This document shows positions 26,543-40,825 of a stretch of DNA of 40,825 nucleotides, one piece after another (positions within the stretch are counted from its first letter, which is position 1; the number at the start of each line of letters is the position of its first letter). The DNA lies in NCBI GenBank assembly GCA_021806945.1, contig JAKAPQ010000004.1, positions 1 to 40,825 on the forward strand, read 5' to 3'. The translations under genes and the position numbers were made by a program. Origin of the DNA: a bacterium (lineage in GTDB: Bacteria; Vulcanimicrobiota; Vulcanimicrobiia; Vulcanimicrobiales; Vulcanimicrobiaceae). Below the pieces are notes generated by a model. That model was not told where the DNA came from. It ran no database searches and worked only from the letters and a program-made list of their open reading frames with translations.

Positions 26543-26577
26543 GCATGCCATCAGTATATGATAGCATGATGGCATGC
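26543..26577. promoter_or_regulatory. Palindromic operator overlapping the start of the RHH antitoxin gene
   Basis: GCATGCCATCA-N13-TGATGGCATGC, perfect 11-bp arms (26543-26553, 26567-26577); TTGACA at 26537-26542; ATG at 26574 lies in the right arm. Confidence 0.75.
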
Positions 26578-26834
26578 ATCGCATTCAGGTCCAGTTAACG
26601 CAGGAGCAAGAGCGGGTCCTGCGCGAGATGGCGCGTCTGCGCGGCTCGTCGATTTCGGCGCTGATTCGAGAGGGCGTCGAGCAACTGACGGCGCCGGAAC
26701 GCGAGCGCCGCGATCGAGCGCGTCGCGCCGCGCTCGCATTGATCGGAGCCTTCAGCGACGCCCCCGACGTGAGCCGCCGGCACGACGACTATTTGGCGGA
26801 CACAATCCAATCGTCACTGCCCGGCAAGGCGTAG
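26574..26834 (+). CDS. Ribbon-helix-helix (CopG-like) antitoxin
   Basis: MHRIQVQLTQEQERVLREMARLRGSSISALIREGVEQL... Confidence 0.85.
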   Translation: MHRIQVQLTQEQERVLREMARLRGSSISALIREGVEQLTAPERERRDRARRAALALIGAFSDAPDVSRRHDDYLADTIQSSLPGKA

Positions 26835-27245
26835 ATGCTCGTCTACTGTGACACATCGGCGCTTTACGCGGTGGGGAATCGTGACGACGAAGCGCATGAA
26901 GCCGCCGCCGAGGCGTGGGAAGCGCTCATAGGCGGCGATCGCCATCGCCTCGTCAGCACGAACTACGTCGTCGTCGAAACGCTCTCGCTCGCGCAGAAGC
27001 GCCAGGGACTCGCCGCGGTGCGCGTGCTGCGCGATGCCCTCGAGCAAACCGTCGAGGTAACATTCGTCGATGAAACGCTCCACAACGCAGCGGTCGAGGA
27101 CTGCTTGCGTACGCGGCGGCGCGGCGTGAGCCTCGTGGATTGCGTCGGCTTCGCCTTCATGCGCCGCCATGGCATCCATCACGCTTTCGCGTTCGACCGG
27201 CACTTCACGGAGTACGGCTTCAAGCCGTTCGTAAAGCCTAAATAA
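26835..27245 (+). CDS. PIN-domain toxin (VapC-like)
   Basis: MLVYCDTSALYAVGNRDDEAHEAA...STNYVVVETLSLAQ...RGVSLVDCVGFAFMRRHGIHHAFAFDRHFTEYGFKPF; immediately follows antitoxin stop. Confidence 0.92.
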   Translation: MLVYCDTSALYAVGNRDDEAHEAAAEAWEALIGGDRHRLVSTNYVVVETLSLAQKRQGLAAVRVLRDALEQTVEVTFVDETLHNAAVEDCLRTRRRGVSLVDCVGFAFMRRHGIHHAFAFDRHFTEYGFKPFVKPK

Positions 27246-27311: not shown

Positions 27312-27716
27312 CTAGAGCCGCTGCACTTTCTTCGCCTTGGCAGCTCGTATCAACTCGAGATCGTCCGTCGCAAGTGGAACGCCGCGCCTGATTGCCAGCT
27401 CCAAGTACGTTGCGTCGTAGATCGTAAGGCGGGTCTCGGCCGCGATCTTGATAATATTCGGGAAGTTCGCCGGAACGTGCGGATCCACATCGAGGCGCAA
27501 GAGCGCCAATCGCGCCAACCGATCGCAAGCGACTTCAATGGGTATCCGATTGCGTCGAGCGCCCATGAGCAACCCGCTCGATACTTCGTAGTGCCATAAG
27601 GCGGGAACGATCGCGTTCTCCTCGGCAATGCGTCGCAAAAGGCTCGTCGTACGTTTCGTTCGCTCTTCTTTGAAGAACCATGTGAGAGCAACCGACGCAT
27701 CGACGACAAAGGCCAT
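27312..27716 (-). CDS. PIN-domain toxin (VapC-like)
   Basis: MAFVVDASVALTWFFKEERTKRT...PALWHYEVSSGLL...LTIYDATYLELAIRRGVPLATDDLELIRAAK. Confidence 0.92.
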   Translation of the reverse strand: MAFVVDASVALTWFFKEERTKRTTSLLRRIAEENAIVPALWHYEVSSGLLMGARRNRIPIEVACDRLARLALLRLDVDPHVPANFPNIIKIAAETRLTIYDATYLELAIRRGVPLATDDLELIRAAKAKKVQRL

Positions 27717-27961
27717 TAAAACCGGCGCCCGTACTCGACCATCTTCCGTATGGACAGGCCACCCGAGCTCAGTTCATTTTGAACTTCCAGCAGTTCGTCA
27801 ACCACGCGCCGAACGTCCTCGCGGTTGCGCGTGGGGGGTACGATCCGCGCAACGGTCCGGCCGTTGCGCGTAATGGCAACTTCCTCACCGGCCTGAACCT
27901 CATCAAGCAGCTGACTAAAGTGCGTTTTCGCGGCGTACGCACCTATGACTTTCATTCTCAT
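27716..27961 (-). CDS. Phd/YefM antitoxin
   Basis: MKVIGAYAAKTHFSQLLDEVQAGEEVAITRNGRTVARIVPP; TAATG junction with the toxin. Confidence 0.92.
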   Translation of the reverse strand: MRMKVIGAYAAKTHFSQLLDEVQAGEEVAITRNGRTVARIVPPTRNREDVRRVVDELLEVQNELSSGGLSIRKMVEYGRRF

Positions 27962-33573: not shown

Positions 33574-34008
33574 TTATGGCTTCCATAGGAGACGCAGATC
33601 GGTAGCGGCCCGCTTCAACTTCTCGTCGCGCGTCATGAGCGGCACGGAACGGCGCACGGCCAATTCCAGATACGCCGCGTCGTACGCTGTCAATCCGAAT
33701 CGTTGGGTGAATTCGAAACCAGTCGCAAGCGGCGACGTCAAGATAAGCCCATCCACCGCAATGCCCAACTCGTCAAGGGCGGCCAGGCTTTCCGTAGCTC
33801 GATCAAACGAAATGCGTTTCCGCCGAACGGCCGCCAAGAGCGCATTTTGTACTTCCCAACGAAACAAGGGCGGTGCGATCGCACTATTCACGACGACGGC
33901 GTTTGCCATCGCTATCGCTTCCTCATCGCGCTCGTCTTCAAAGAGCCACGACAGTGCGGTGGACGCGTCGAGTACGGCGGCGGGCCTAATAGCGGCGGCC
34001 CGTTTCAA
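33574..34008 (-). CDS. PIN-domain toxin (VapC-like)
   Basis: AAVLDASTALSWLFEDERDEEAIAM...PPLFRWEVQNALLAAVRRKRIS...FGLTAYDAAYLELAVRRSVPLMTRDEKLKRAA. Confidence 0.92.
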   Translation of the reverse strand: MKRAAAIRPAAVLDASTALSWLFEDERDEEAIAMANAVVVNSAIAPPLFRWEVQNALLAAVRRKRISFDRATESLAALDELGIAVDGLILTSPLATGFEFTQRFGLTAYDAAYLELAVRRSVPLMTRDEKLKRAATDLRLLWKP

Positions 34009-34225
34009 TGAGCTGTCGGATGGTGGCTTTACCGAGCGTCATCTTACTCGAGAGGATCCGTTTCATCGCCCCTTCGGCGGTATTGATTGACGCCTTTGAG
34101 CTTACGGGGCCAATCTGCGCAACCGCCTGACCGTTCTTTGTAACGATAATTATTTCACCGTTCTTGGCCTCTTCGATCAGCGCCGAGAAGTGGGTCTTGC
34201 CCTCAAATATCCCAACTTTCTTCAC
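33986..34225 (-). CDS. Phd/YefM antitoxin
   Basis: MKKVGIFEGKTHFSALIEEAKNGEIIIVTKNGQAVAQIGPV. Confidence 0.92.
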   Translation of the reverse strand: MKKVGIFEGKTHFSALIEEAKNGEIIIVTKNGQAVAQIGPVSSKASINTAEGAMKRILSSKMTLGKATIRQLIETGRRY

Positions 34226-35029: not shown

Positions 35030-35449
35030 TCAGGATGACAGGTGGAGGGATTTTAGGGCGGTGCGGATCTCTTCGGGGGTGGGGGGGCAGCCGCGGACGG
35101 TGATTGTGGCTTGTAATTCGATTCCGGCTCCGGGGCCGGCGGATGGAGCGCCGGACCAGGGGCCTTCGCCGGCGGCGCAATCGCCGATCGCGACGACGAT
35201 GCGCGGGCGCGGTACGGCGTCGAGCGTCTCGCGGGCTGCGGCGCGCATCGCCGGCGTCATCGGGCCCGTCACCGTTACGATATCGGCGTGGCGCGGCGAC
35301 GCGACGATATCCCAACCGTCTTGCGTGATGTCGTAAAAGGCGTTCGAGAGCGCGTTCATCTCGTGCTCGCAGCCGTTGCAGCTGCCGCAGGCAACGTGGC
35401 GCACGCCAAGCGACTTGCGAAACGTCTCGCGCTTCATCGGTCCGCACAC
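35030..35449 (-). CDS. hyfI: Group-4 hydrogenase small subunit / NuoB-like (HyfI-like)
   Basis: VACGSCNGCEHEMNAL...WDIVASPRHADIVTVTGPMT...RIVVAIGDCAAGEGPW...VRGCPPTPEEI. Confidence 0.88.
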   Translation of the reverse strand: MCGPMKRETFRKSLGVRHVACGSCNGCEHEMNALSNAFYDITQDGWDIVASPRHADIVTVTGPMTPAMRAAARETLDAVPRPRIVVAIGDCAAGEGPWSGAPSAGPGAGIELQATITVRGCPPTPEEIRTALKSLHLSS

Positions 35450-36834
35450 GCGTAGCAGAGATTGAAACTTTTATTGACGAGCGGAAAGTCCGGAACGATG
35501 TTGCCGTCCATCGCGCGCGCGACCAGCGGCCAGTTGCGGTACGACGCGGAGATGACGTGCAGCCGCGTGAGGATCCCGTCGCCGCCGGTGTGAAGCGCGA
35601 CGACCTCGCTGCCGCGCGGCCCCTCGACCACCGCGCTGGCGTCGCCCGCCGGAACGGCCATCGGCTGCGGATCCGGCAGCGCGGCGTCGCCGATCTCCGC
35701 GAGCGCCGCGCCGATCAGGCGCAGCGATTCGCGGATCTCGTCGCGCTTCACGCGAGCGCGCCCGAACGAGTCGCCGCCCGAAGCGTGCGCGATACGCACC
35801 GCAAACTCGCGGTATGCGCCGTACGGAGCGAAGGTTCGAACGTCGATCTCGCCGCGCGATGCGCGATGTGCGGGGCCGACGGCGCCGAACGCGTGGGCCG
35901 ACTCGCGCGACACCACGCCCACACGCTGCCAGCGCGCGACCGTCGACGATTGGGCGAATAGCCGCGTCAGGTACGCTTCGAGATCGCGGGCGAGATCGGC
36001 GAGATCGCGCGCGATGCGGGGGCGCTCGCGCAGCGTCTGCGCGCCGACGCCGCCGGGAACGATCGCGTCGAAGAGCAGCCGGTGGCCGCCTGCGAGCCGG
36101 CACAGGCGCATGGCGCGCTCCTTGAGCGCCATGCCGCTAGCAAAGCCGGGCCCCCAACCGGCGCCGGCGGCGCTCGCGGCTAGATCGCCGAGATGATTGT
36201 AGATGCGTTCGAACTCGGCGAGAACGAGCCGCGCGAGCTCCACCTCGCGCGCGATCTCGATTCCCGCGAGCTGCTCGAGCGCACGCGCGTACGCGAACGA
36301 GCGCGCGGCGCTGCAGCTGCCGCAGATCCGCGCTACGAGCGGCGCGGCCTGCAACGCGCCGAGCCCCTCGACGTGCCGTTCGACGCCGCGATGCGCGTAG
36401 GAGAGCTGCGCGTCCAGATGCACGATCGTTTCGCCGCCCGAGCTGAAGGTGAACCGCCCCGGTTCGTTGATCCCCGCGTGCACCGGCCCGACGACGAAAC
36501 GCATGAGGCCGGCGCCCTGCGCGACGATCGCCGGCGGCATCTCGCCACCGGTTCCGCGCAGCGGGCGCGCATCCGGGAGCGCGTCGAAGCGCACGCCCCA
36601 CTCTTGCGCCATCTCGCGTTCGTCCCACGAGAAGAGCGGAGACGTTCCGGAGACGGCTCGCAGCAGCGCGTCCGCATCTCGCGGGTGCGCGAGCGCGTAG
36701 GGACCGCTCGCGGCGAGGAACAGGTAGCGCACCTCCTCGGCGCGCGCGTACGCGCCGAGCGGAAGCGCGGTGAGGCACTCGGCCTCCACGCGATCGGCGA
36801 AGCGCTCCGCAGCGATCTCGTGCGCGCCGCTCAC
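35434..36834 (-). CDS. hyfG: Group-4 hydrogenase large subunit, NuoCD-like (HyfG/HycE-like)
   Basis: GPVHAGINEPGRFTFSSGGETIVHLDAQLSYAHRGVERHVEGL...VARICGSCSAARSFAYARALEQLAGIEI...FNLCYACADR*; GTG start. Confidence 0.88.
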   Translation of the reverse strand: MSGAHEIAAERFADRVEAECLTALPLGAYARAEEVRYLFLAASGPYALAHPRDADALLRAVSGTSPLFSWDEREMAQEWGVRFDALPDARPLRGTGGEMPPAIVAQGAGLMRFVVGPVHAGINEPGRFTFSSGGETIVHLDAQLSYAHRGVERHVEGLGALQAAPLVARICGSCSAARSFAYARALEQLAGIEIAREVELARLVLAEFERIYNHLGDLAASAAGAGWGPGFASGMALKERAMRLCRLAGGHRLLFDAIVPGGVGAQTLRERPRIARDLADLARDLEAYLTRLFAQSSTVARWQRVGVVSRESAHAFGAVGPAHRASRGEIDVRTFAPYGAYREFAVRIAHASGGDSFGRARVKRDEIRESLRLIGAALAEIGDAALPDPQPMAVPAGDASAVVEGPRGSEVVALHTGGDGILTRLHVISASYRNWPLVARAMDGNIVPDFPLVNKSFNLCYACADR

Positions 36835-38249
36835 GGCGTTCCTTCGATACGCGACGAGGTTGCGTGGAGCATGGTTCCGAGCGGCGTCCATGGGACGACG
36901 ATCGTGAGAAGAGCGCCGGCGAGCGCCAGCCCGGCGGCGATCGCCGAGAGCCGCGACGCGGCCGGCCGGTGCGGCGCGGCTTTGGCGCGGCCGCCTTCGA
37001 TCTCGATCGCCGCACGCGAGAGCGCGATGAAACCTAGCGCGATGCCGAGCAGACCGAACCCGAGCGGAATCCACTGACGCGATGCGACCCCGGCCGCTAC
37101 GAGCAAGAGCTCGCTGATGAAGAGCCCGAACGGCGGCATGCCGCAGAGAGCGGTCATCGCGCCGAGCAAGAAGCGCCCGCCGGCGCCGGTGGAGATGAGC
37201 CCGTGCAGCGCTCCCAACTCGGTCGTTCGCCGTTCCCGCTGCACCATGCCGGCGGCGAAAAAGGCGGCGGACTTCGCGAATGCGTGGGCGACGATGTGGA
37301 AGAGCGCCGCAAAGAGGCCGATCGGGCCCCCGAAGCCCAGCGCCAGCGCGACGATGCCGGCGTGTTCGACGGTCGAGTACGCGAGCAAGCGCTTCAGATC
37401 GCGCTGGCTCAGCATCAGCGTGCCGGCAACCACCGTTGAGAGCGAGCCCAGCACCAGCAGCAGCGTGTGAATCACCGGCCCCGCGCCGAGTGCCGCGGCG
37501 ACGGAGAGCGTTCGCACGATCGCGTAGAGCGCGCACGAAACGAGCACGCCCGAGAGCAGCCCGCTGATCGGCGCCGGAGCCTTCGAGTGCGCGTCGGGGA
37601 GCCACGCGTGCATGGGGACGAGGCCCGCTTTGGTGGCGAATCCGATCGCCATGAGCGCGGTCGCCAGCCGTGCGAGCGGCGGCGCCGTTGCCGGCGCGTG
37701 CGCGGCGATGCTCGTCCACGAAAGCGCTTGCAGTGGGCTCAATCCCGCTGCCATGGTAACGTGCCCCAGCACGACGATGCCGAGCAGTGCGAGCGCGATG
37801 CCGACGCTGCACAGCACGAGATATTTCCACGCCGCTTCAAGCGCGGCGGCCTCGCCGCTGAAGCCGACGAGGAAGGCCGTCGCGAGCGTCGTCGCCGAGA
37901 TTCCAAGCCACAGCAGCGCGAAGTTATCGGCGAGCACGACCACCAGCATCGCACTCCAGAACGCGCCGAGCAGCACGAAGTAGACCGGCTTGCGCGACCA
38001 CACCGCTTCGCCGCTTCCCCAATCCAGAGAGTCCGCTCCGGCGGAGAAGACGGTCGCCAAGAGCCCCAAGACCGAGACGAGCGCAGCGAAGAGCAGCGAG
38101 AGCGCGTCGACGCTGCCGGCGAGCGTCACCGGTAGGAGCGCCGCGGCGACTGCGAGCGCGATGCGCACCGCCTGCCGTTGCGCGCGCACGCGGAACGCCA
38201 GCGCGAGCAACGCGCCCAGCAAGGGCGCGGCGATCGCCACGCCGATCAT
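36831..38249 (-). CDS. hyfF: HyfF/HycQ-like proton-translocating antiporter-type subunit
   Basis: GFATKAGLVPMHAWLPDAHSKAPAPISGLLSGVLVSCALYAIVR...RDLKRLLAYSTVEHAGIVALALG. Confidence 0.9.
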   Translation of the reverse strand: MIGVAIAAPLLGALLALAFRVRAQRQAVRIALAVAAALLPVTLAGSVDALSLLFAALVSVLGLLATVFSAGADSLDWGSGEAVWSRKPVYFVLLGAFWSAMLVVVLADNFALLWLGISATTLATAFLVGFSGEAAALEAAWKYLVLCSVGIALALLGIVVLGHVTMAAGLSPLQALSWTSIAAHAPATAPPLARLATALMAIGFATKAGLVPMHAWLPDAHSKAPAPISGLLSGVLVSCALYAIVRTLSVAAALGAGPVIHTLLLVLGSLSTVVAGTLMLSQRDLKRLLAYSTVEHAGIVALALGFGGPIGLFAALFHIVAHAFAKSAAFFAAGMVQRERRTTELGALHGLISTGAGGRFLLGAMTALCGMPPFGLFISELLLVAAGVASRQWIPLGFGLLGIALGFIALSRAAIEIEGGRAKAAPHRPAASRLSAIAAGLALAGALLTIVVPWTPLGTMLHATSSRIEGTP

Positions 38250-38854
38250 CCGCGCAGCCTTCGCAGCGACTCGACGTCGAGCACCGGATTCTCCGCGACG
38301 AAGGCGCGCACGAGCGCGAGCCCGATGAACGTGGCGACCAGCGCGTCGAACGTCGCGCCGAGCTCGACCGATTCCGGAAGAGCCGGGGCGAGCGTAGCAC
38401 CCGCGAGCGTGATCCCGGCTCCAAGCGCCAGCAGCCCCATCACGTGCGCGAGCAGATTGCGGTGCACGATCAACATTCCGACGCTGCAGAGTACCACGTA
38501 GGCCACCATGCTTTGCATCGGAACCGGGGCGAGCGCCGCGGAGTGGCCGACGAGGCGAGCGATCGACGCGAACGCCACGACCAGCACGATCCGCGCCGGC
38601 AGACCGATCGATGGCCGCAGATCGCTCGCAGCCGGATTCGCGCGCAAGAACAAGAGGATGCCCACCGGAACGACGACGAGTTTCACCAGCGACGAGAGCG
38701 CGAAGAGCGCGAGCGCGAGCGGCGACTCCAGCGCCGAGGGCAGGATGAAGATGCTGGCGGTGGCGGCCAGCACGACGTAGGCAATGAGAATCCGGGGAGT
38801 CCGCCTCTCGACGATCAAGAGCCCGCCTGCGAAGAGCATGAGGAGATCGACCAT
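38246..38854 (-). CDS. hyfE: HyfE/HycP-like membrane subunit
   Basis: MVDLLMLFAGGLLIVERRTPRILIAYVVLAATAS...; 4-nt overlaps both sides, correct position. Confidence 0.82.
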   Translation of the reverse strand: MVDLLMLFAGGLLIVERRTPRILIAYVVLAATASIFILPSALESPLALALFALSSLVKLVVVPVGILLFLRANPAASDLRPSIGLPARIVLVVAFASIARLVGHSAALAPVPMQSMVAYVVLCSVGMLIVHRNLLAHVMGLLALGAGITLAGATLAPALPESVELGATFDALVATFIGLALVRAFVAENPVLDVESLRRLRG

Positions 38855-39738
38855 CACGCGAGCACTCCCAGCAGGCGCAGCCCGATGCTCGTCGCCGCCA
38901 GGATGAAGGCGATGAGCAGCAGCTGGGGCACTTCGAACAACCGCACCTTCGCGGAGGCGTTCTCGACAAGCGTGATTGCGGCGGCCAGAGCGGGGACGTA
39001 CAGAACGTGCGCCCACCACGCGCTGCCGGGAAGTAAGAAGGCGGCCAGCAACAACCAACTCAGCTGCCGCACGCAGGCCGCGAGCTGCAGCCCCGCGAGC
39101 TGCCAGCCGGCATATTCGAGGACGAGCCCTTCATGAATCATCGTGAGCTCGTAGTGCGTCTCTTGATTGTCGATGGGGACGCGGGCCGTCTCCGCCAGCA
39201 GAACGAGAAAGAACGCGGCGAACGCCAGCAGGCCGGCTAGCCCGAACGGCGCGCGCAGCAACGCGGAGAATCCCGTGCCGTAGCCGAGCGCGGCGCCGCC
39301 GAGCAGCGCGAGAAGCAGCGCGGGTTCGACGAGGCTGCTGAAGGTCATCTCGCGGCTGGCCGCCATTCCCGCAAAGCTGCTGCGCGTATCGAGCGCGGCC
39401 AAGCCCAGCACGAACCGCCCGAGCGCCAGCAGAAAGACGAGCGCGACGATATCGATGACGCTCGCGGCTGCGGGCGCGGCCAGCGGAATCGCCGCTGCGA
39501 ACGTCAGCGCGACGCCGAGCACGACCCCCGGCGCGATAACCGCGAGCATCGAGGCCCCCTCGGGTAAGAGCGCCTCCTTTCCCCACAGTTTGATCAGGTC
39601 GCGATAGGGCTGGGCGACGCTCGGCCCGGGGCGGCCTTGGAGCCGCGCGCGCAGCCGTTTCATCGCACCCTGCAGCAGCGGCGCGAGCGCGACGATCGCT
39701 ATCGCTTGGACGATCGCTATCGCTTGAAGGTAGCTCAT
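38854..39738 (-). CDS. hyfC: HyfC/HycD-like (NuoH-type) membrane subunit
   Basis: LQGRPGPSVAQPYRDLIKLWGKEALLPEGAS...ETARVPIDNQETHYELTMIHEGLVLEYAG. Confidence 0.92.
   Translation of the reverse strand: MSYLQAIAIVQAIAIVALAPLLQGAMKRLRARLQGRPGPSVAQPYRDLIKLWGKEALLPEGASMLAVIAPGVVLGVALTFAAAIPLAAPAAASVIDIVALVFLLALGRFVLGLAALDTRSSFAGMAASREMTFSSLVEPALLLALLGGAALGYGTGFSALLRAPFGLAGLLAFAAFFLVLLAETARVPIDNQETHYELTMIHEGLVLEYAGWQLAGLQLAACVRQLSWLLLAAFLLPGSAWWAHVLYVPALAAAITLVENASAKVRLFEVPQLLLIAFILAATSIGLRLLGVLA
39692..39727. repeat. 18-bp in-frame tandem duplication in hyfC start region
   Basis: acgatcgctatcgcttgg/acgatcgctatcgcttga, encoding QAIAIVQAIAIV. Confidence 0.85.
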
Positions 39739-40825
39739 CGGGCGAGCGCTACCGCCAAGACGAGCGCGGCTAGCGCGTAGGCGACGTAGAGCCGCAGGCT
39801 CCCGCTCTGAAGCGCGCGCGTGCGGCGCGAGAGGCGCAAGGCCGCGCCCGAGAGGCGGCGCGCGACCTCGTCGATCACGTAGCGGCTCTCGGTGTGGTAG
39901 CGGATCTGCAGCGGGAACCACGGCGAGATCCCGGCCTCGAGCACGCGGCGGCGCTCCGGAAAGAGCACGAAGGCGAAGATCGTCCGTAGCGGCTTCGAGA
40001 AGGCGGTGGCCGTATATTGCGCCGCCGCGGTAACCGGCGATCCGCAGGTCCAGGTCGAGACGCGGCGCACGCCGCGCCGTGCGGCCAGAACCGCGGCAGC
40101 CACGGCACCGAGCAGCGGCACGATCGCCAACGTCAGCGGCAGCGTAGGTAGTGCCGGCAGCGCTATCGGCACGCCGCCCACGATCCCCGCGGCGATTCGC
40201 TCGAGCGGAGCGACCGCCAGCATCGGCGCGAGCCCGAAGAGCGTGCAGAGCGCGGCCAGAAAGCCCAGACCGAAAGTTGACGCGTCAACGCGTTCGCGGG
40301 CGGCGGTGGCCGGCGGCAGCGCGCGGCGGGCGCGGCCGAGAAAGACGACGCCGAAGACCTTCACGAAGCAGGCGGCTGCGAGGCCGCCCGTCAAGGCGAA
40401 GCCGGCGATCGAGGCCAGGAGCACGAGCCGCACCGAGATCGTTCCGAGATGCAGCCCGGCGACGAGGCTTTGGAAGGTCATCCACTCAGAAGCGAAGCCG
40501 TTGAACGGCGGAAGGCCGGCGATCGCGGCGCAACCGATGAGAAAGAGCGGCGCGGTCCAGACGAGGCGAGCCCAGACGCCGCCGAGACGCTCCAAATCAG
40601 CCGTCCCCTCCGCATCGATCACCGTCCCCGCGCCCAAGAAGAGCAGCCCCTTGAAGAGGCCGTGATTGATCGTATGAAAGAGCGCCGCAGTCAGCGCGAG
40701 GGCCGCCACGGCAGCGTTGCCGGAGGCGAGCCCGACGACGGCGACGCCGATCCCGATGACGATGATGCCGACGTTCTCGACGGAGTGATAGGCGAGCAGC
40801 CGCTTGAGATCGTGGTCCACGAGCG
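39735..40825 (-). CDS. hyfB: HyfB-like antiporter-type subunit, C-terminal part (truncated by window end)
   Basis: DHDLKRLLAYHSVENVGIIVIGIGVAVVGL...ALTAALFHTINHGLFKGLLFLGAGTVIDA...GLPPFNGFASEWMTFQSL. Confidence 0.92.
   Translation of the reverse strand, partial: LVDHDLKRLLAYHSVENVGIIVIGIGVAVVGLASGNAAVAALALTAALFHTINHGLFKGLLFLGAGTVIDAEGTADLERLGGVWARLVWTAPLFLIGCAAIAGLPPFNGFASEWMTFQSLVAGLHLGTISVRLVLLASIAGFALTGGLAAACFVKVFGVVFLGRARRALPPATAARERVDASTFGLGFLAALCTLFGLAPMLAVAPLERIAAGIVGGVPIALPALPTLPLTLAIVPLLGAVAAAVLAARRGVRRVSTWTCGSPVTAAAQYTATAFSKPLRTIFAFVLFPERRRVLEAGISPWFPLQIRYHTESRYVIDEVARRLSGAALRLSRRTRALQSGSLRLYVAYALAALVLAVALAR

Follow-up and report, generated by a model that had tools for sequence, protein, structure and literature searches.

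The window analysed here is one whole contig of 40,825 bp (G000:C228) from a soil bacterium's metagenome-assembled genome (MAG) of 2.36 Mb that is 87% complete. Its last 5.8 kb (35030-40825, minus strand) carry six genes, hyfB, hyfC, hyfE, hyfF, hyfG and hyfI, for a membrane complex resembling group 4 hydrogenases, and it is the site formed by four conserved cysteines in the large subunit HyfG that concerns us. An initial annotation had described a compact six-subunit operon without hyfD and without a ferredoxin gene between hyfG and hyfI. Matches in Pfam and NCBIfam back each of the six genes, their order recurs in relatives, and neither hyfD nor hyfH is present within 35030-40825. The features are as follows.

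39735..40825, minus strand: hyfB, antiporter-like membrane subunit (PF00361); 361 codons, 5´ end truncated by the contig end
38854..39738, minus strand: hyfC, membrane anchor of the NuoH/HycD type (PF00146)
38246..38854, minus strand: hyfE, NuoK-like membrane subunit (PF00420 and the hydrogenase 4 membrane subunit model)
36831..38249, minus strand: hyfF, second antiporter-like membrane subunit (PF00361)
37896..37898, minus strand: HyfF residue 118 (Ser), aligned with the glutamate of transmembrane helix 5 (TM5; E. coli NuoM E144)
35434..36891, minus strand: hyfG, large subunit with a NuoC-like N-terminal part; start uncertain; best solved relative HycE of E. coli formate hydrogenlyase (FHL)
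36301..36330, minus strand: HyfG L1 motif RICGSCSAAR, both cysteines kept, motif His replaced by Arg
35446..35457, minus strand: HyfG L2 motif CYAC, within SFNLCYACADR followed by the stop
35030..35437, minus strand: hyfI, small subunit carrying cysteines for a single proximal 4Fe-4S cluster and without a fused ferredoxin domain

Most of the junctions are overlaps of 1-4 bp; that of hyfF and hyfG is longer and depends on the start chosen. The overlap of hyfG and hyfI had been put at 16 bp. The overlap itself stands, but this length needs a GTG start at 35449, and the ATG at 35437, a start call common to a genome of the same genus (G002), gives an ordinary 4-bp ATGA overlap. The complete operon was read in this second genome (locus L034), where HyfG is 97% identical to that of the window. 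It begins with the gene of an ArsR-type regulator (106 aa) that overlaps hyfB (622 aa) by 4 bp, followed by C, E, F, G and I, and the genes further upstream are unrelated. The initial annotation had proposed to look upstream for a ferredoxin gene belonging to the operon; none was found there in G002, and at the operon ends read in L034 and the window neither a ferredoxin nor a formate dehydrogenase gene is adjacent.

A protein search of 148 relatives found window-type HyfG, at 48–100% identity, in 32 Eremiobacterota genomes, here called clade W. The 4Fe-4S electron-input subunit of the HyfH/HycF/EchF type is absent from the window, from the G002 operon and from the clade-W operons examined. 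Ka/Ks between the hyf genes of the window and G002 is 0.04–0.21, indicating purifying selection, and because this comes together with a gene order that recurs across the family, the locus lies far beyond chance.

Cysteine motifs and phylogeny of HyfG

Both CxxC pairs, one in L1 and one in L2, are invariant in every clade-W HyfG that spans them. L1 reads RxCxxCxxxR, and L2 reads SFNLCYxCxDR, or ends in DK, at the very C-terminus. Compared with FHL and Mbh, in which L1 is CxxCxxxH and L2 contains DPC, clade W has the L1 histidine replaced by arginine and DPC by NLC. HyfG stops directly after L2 and has no C-terminal extension to cleave. Its predicted fold is nearest to E. coli HycE (7z0s_E, TM-score 0.82 by query), in a model whose confidence is low at residues 123–167 and 463–485, next to or at the site; a viral fold search gave no match. 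The best solved relatives of HyfI are MbhJ and HycG of FHL.

We placed HyfG in two trees (LG+C20 with posterior mean site frequencies, PMSF; the drawn root is the midpoint). The complexes without HyfH, those of Desulfitobacteriaceae included, fall together in a single branch (100/99) that excludes FHL, Mbh and complex I, and this branch mixes cysteine-bearing members with cysteine-less members known as Ehr. Clade W forms a separate, long-stemmed branch (100/100). Sister to it (93/91 and 93/87) are Ehr complexes devoid of the cysteines, among them the loci of Rhodococcus and Rhizobium. About six changes on the tree are required to account for the distribution of the cysteine-bearing state, and the cysteines were therefore probably lost several times, the direction of change being inferred from FHL and Mbh, both of which bear cysteines. 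Complex I proper, with which the window complex shares homologous large, small and membrane subunits, is rejected both by the tree position and by the lack of NuoE/F/G/I genes at the locus; unlike complex I, the complex has a cysteine-bearing HyfG. The phylogeny of HyfG, proposed in the initial annotation as a test, thus places it outside complex I. The host encodes its own NuoD as well.

Within the 4f/Ehr branch, the window complex counts among the cysteine-bearing members. These probably correspond to HydDB group 4f, and the window clade grouped in the tree with the complexes of Desulfitobacteriaceae. The literature names group 4f for Melainabacteria (PMC6349859) and Desulfitobacterium (PMC9888536) and has it as a HydDB reference (PMC7811984). 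It is filed as a hydrogenase ("Ehf"; reference EhfE of Desulfosporosinus orientis; D. hafniense ACL22288-93). The complexes of Desulfitobacteriaceae resemble that of the window in being six-subunit sets of the HyfBCEFGI type with both CxxC pairs, without HyfH, on the same supported branch; the window clade differs in the L1 arginine, in NLC for ELC/DPC before L2 and in the loss of the TM5 glutamate of HyfF.

The Ehr loci, found for example in Rhizobium, Paraburkholderia and Rhodococcus, are the nearest branch to the window clade and are likewise built of six subunits without HyfH, sometimes with a regulator in front. By definition the Ni- and Fe-ligating residues are missing from them (PMC6349859), whereas the window clade keeps all four cysteines and, because these ligands are kept, falls outside Ehr. 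The cysteines might nevertheless be only structural, for instance as a Zn site, in an Ehr-type complex that reduces quinone or polysulfide at or near the proximal cluster. That the sister group is cysteine-less indicates that the fold works without them, and six-subunit cysteine-less versions are common. However, the four positions are invariant at the exact L1 and L2 places of active enzymes despite divergence to about 48% identity, a structural role would not require both pairs to be retained, and the quinone-contact residues of complex I near L1 are not present in clade-W HyfG in the alignment. We regard a purely structural role as quite unlikely.

Hyp maturation genes

Known [NiFe] centres are built by Hyp proteins, the Fe(CN)2CO part being the work of HypC, HypD, HypE and HypF. 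Presence of these proteins was scored against curated profile cut-offs. HypE and HypF exceed the cut-off in six of the 32 clade-W genomes (G000, G002, G010, G021, G030 and G047), as does HypC, and HypD, searched in 26 of the 32, was found in the same six only. Each of the six encodes a conventional large subunit (PF00374) in addition. HypC, HypE and HypF are below cut-off in the other 26, and HypD is absent from these wherever it was sought; HypA and HypB were not searched for. Hyp genes also occur in genomes without clade W (G014, G036, G117 and G130), and the two are therefore independent traits: Hyp genes follow conventional hydrogenases, not this complex. Weak HypE and HypF matches in nearly all genomes were rejected as paralogues, being below the curated cut-offs and present also in controls such as B. 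subtilis. In the open-access literature we found no report of missing maturation genes for these complexes.

Most of the genomes are MAGs, and the absence of Hyp genes could in that case be an artefact of incompleteness. Yet 15 of the 26 Hyp-less carriers are 90–100% complete (G007, G008, G012, G013, G025, G028, G034, G042, G043, G045, G048, G051, G058, G060 and G086), none with any Hyp gene sought, and every Hyp-bearing carrier has the whole set tested. A genome of Desulfitobacteriaceae, G183 (L218), is a single contig of 3,176,073 bp with a cysteine-bearing complex, in which neither HypD nor HypF nor another full-length [NiFe] large subunit was found. On the near-complete genomes and this contig, we reject incompleteness as the cause; it is very improbable.

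The same absence is seen elsewhere on the HyfH-less branch. HypD is absent from 12 Melainabacteria-type and five Eisenbacteria genomes, HypF from all 15 of those tested, and none of these 15 has a full-length conventional large subunit; their HyfG bears the cysteines wherever it was read.

From these observations we read the complex as a proton-translocating oxidoreductase in which the four conserved cysteines of HyfG hold a redox site made independently of Hyp, at a probability of roughly two in three. Since this site would be assembled without the Hyp pathway, the complex is probably no conventional [NiFe]-hydrogenase; by the maturation genes, missing from most carriers, and by the lost L1 histidine, it falls outside those enzymes. 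In the initial annotation it had been called group-4 hydrogenase-like. The likeness to a group 4 membrane complex stands, and the word hydrogenase is made doubtful by the lack of HypC, HypD, HypE and HypF in most carriers.

The most direct competitor is a true group 4f [NiFe]-hydrogenase, an H2-linked proton pump matured by Hyp proteins where these are present and by an alternative pathway elsewhere. All four cysteines are conserved, and the complex shares a branch with those of Desulfitobacteriaceae, that of D. hafniense being called a 4f Ech hydrogenase (PMC9888536). Several further points weigh against a Hyp-independent site. Hyp genes are present in the window genome itself, alongside another hydrogenase, and this set could in principle load the complex. 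By sequence and predicted fold, the closest solved relative of HyfG is HycE of FHL, as expected of a real [NiFe] subunit, and the strictly conserved CxxC pairs are what such a subunit would show. HypD was found in 19 of 20 Desulfitobacteriaceae genomes of the family search, where a normal cofactor is possible. The survey covered HypC, HypD, HypE and HypF only, and no gene at the examined loci points to a substrate. Set against a group 4f hydrogenase are the 26 carriers without HypC, HypE and HypF and without HypD where sought, the same lack in Melainabacteria, Eisenbacteria and G183, and the lost L1 histidine. To our knowledge, there is no Hyp-independent route to Fe(CN)2CO for [NiFe] enzymes. 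We therefore consider a group 4f hydrogenase unlikely and retain the Hyp-independent oxidoreductase.

The Hyp set of the window genome lies on another contig (G000:C233, 10.8–18.4 kb), as hypE, hypD, hypC and hypF with the large subunit of a conventional [NiFe] uptake hydrogenase.

Related complexes and neighbouring genes

Named records of the close relatives belong to Candidatus Eremiobacterota (WPS-2), and clade-W loci are repeatedly ordered (ArsR)-B-C-E-F-G-I. Some clade-W genomes hold a second complex ordered C-E-F-G-I-B, whose HyfG has none of the four cysteines and whose small subunit is extended at the N-terminus by a ferredoxin-like part. That of the window genome lies at L006 (G000:C99, 1–4722), with a counterpart at L047 (G002:C20), and in both the small subunit has lost cysteines of the proximal cluster. 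G047 has two head-to-head clade-W operons (G047:C154, ~66–88 kb; L035 and L036) with a single ArsR gene between them and HyfGs 75% and 55% identical to that of the window. Just downstream of the operon in G002 (L034, 14776–15396), a hyfG fragment (residues ~237–384, 95% identical) is fused to another frame and looks like a partial duplication.

Outside the phylum, six-subunit loci without HyfH occur in Melainabacteria, Eisenbacteria, Paraburkholderia, Ferrovaceae, Terriglobia and Desulfitobacteriaceae, and also on plasmids of Rhizobium, Rhodococcus and Methylocalor. The compact complex without HyfH that the initial annotation singled out is thus real but not rare, and the absence of HyfH is in itself no surprise, since it is a property of a large family. 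A small subunit with a fused ferredoxin part is found in UBP16-type genomes, in Allomeiothermus and in some Eremiobacterota clades. In one clade (L094, L096 and L100, of families f15, f9 and f16), whose HyfG lacks the cysteines and whose HyfI carries a ferredoxin-like part, a helix-turn-helix regulator of ~225 aa precedes hyfB. In Melainabacteria, a gene of the GPR1/FUN34/YaaH type (acetate transporter family) stands directly after hyfI (L154, 10659–11246; L155, 10863–11447) or before hyfB (L160, 3001–3597); the ~195-aa gene after hyfI was considered as a maturation factor and rejected as being this transporter. In the window, pairs of small genes at 33574–34225, 27312–27955 and 26574–27245 encode a PIN-type protein and a small partner and are toxin-antitoxin-like; one PIN-type pair is close to hyfI and is conserved in G002.

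Two known loci invite comparison. The M. tuberculosis locus Rv0081–Rv0087 ("Hyc"), a predicted formate hydrogenlyase, has six matching subunits and an ArsR gene in front (PMC6901956), and the likeness of subunit set to Rv0082–Rv0087 noted in the initial annotation agrees with this list; the genome scan and the plasmid searches yielded no mycobacterial sequence. Its gene order differs, with the small subunit first, and in a Rhodococcus locus of that order HyfG lacks all four cysteines. E. coli FHL (group 4a, HycE/HyfG) supplies the closest solved relative of HyfG, yet stands on a separate branch and, unlike the window complex, has ferredoxin-type subunits, a formate dehydrogenase, a C-terminal extension, the L1 histidine and DPC at L2. 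No formate dehydrogenase or HycB/HycF-type gene was found in or beside the operon in L034 or at the ends of that in the window.

Membrane arm, mechanism and meaning

In clade W, all 20 of 20 HyfB sequences retain glutamate in TM5, lysine in TM7 and glutamate in TM12, and HyfC keeps most of its conserved acidic residues. The TM7 lysine and the TM12 glutamate are retained in HyfF as well, but its TM5 glutamate is replaced by Ser, Thr or Ala in every clade-W sequence; outside the clade, all aligned HyfF have it, with Rhodococcus as the sole exception. In complex I, loss of the TM5 glutamate impairs pumping in that subunit, and by analogy the number of protons moved per electron may be lower in clade W.

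No CVC metal-binding motif is present in the ArsR proteins encoded ahead of hyfB. The best solved match of the G002 protein is Rv0081 of M. tuberculosis (E 1e-14), a hypoxia regulator in front of Rv0082–Rv0087 (PMC6901956). Because this likeness lies within a large family, a shared low-oxygen role is a lead only.

Judged from its subunits, the complex would work as a group 4 membrane-bound, proton-moving oxidoreductase. The electron partner left unassigned in the initial annotation may be a soluble low-potential carrier, with ferredoxin as the first candidate, docking on HyfI at the place of HyfH. Electrons would pass from the proximal cluster of HyfI to the four-cysteine site of HyfG. This site might consist of reactive thiols, or of a metal or Fe-S centre lacking Fe(CN)2CO. 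Turnover of a small substrate at this site would drive protons mainly through HyfC and HyfB, the channel of HyfF presumably being altered by the glutamate loss, and, with Rv0081 as a guide, ArsR may make expression of the operon depend on oxygen supply. One intriguing if tentative extension is that a branch of the superfamily kept the four-cysteine frame and dropped Ni-Fe(CN)2CO, such that the pocket holds a different metal or Fe-S centre acting on a new substrate in a proton-coupled reaction. Part of "group 4f" would then not be hydrogenase.

What is new here is the combination of a cysteine-bearing HyfG with missing Hyp genes; the six-subunit set itself is widespread. Counts of hydrogenases in genomes and metagenomes are based on sequence, mostly on the cysteine motifs, and would be inflated by a cysteine-bearing complex without Hyp genes. 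The finding also bears on the evolution from hydrogenase to complex I, in that the cofactor machinery is gone and the ligands remain, and in close relatives the ligands are missing as well. The related M. tuberculosis locus, under a low-oxygen regulator, is still described as a formate hydrogenlyase, which makes the function of these complexes directly testable. G183 may be a cultured species and, if so, would be the best test organism. If our reading is true, these bacteria have a novel redox centre in a respiratory proton pump.

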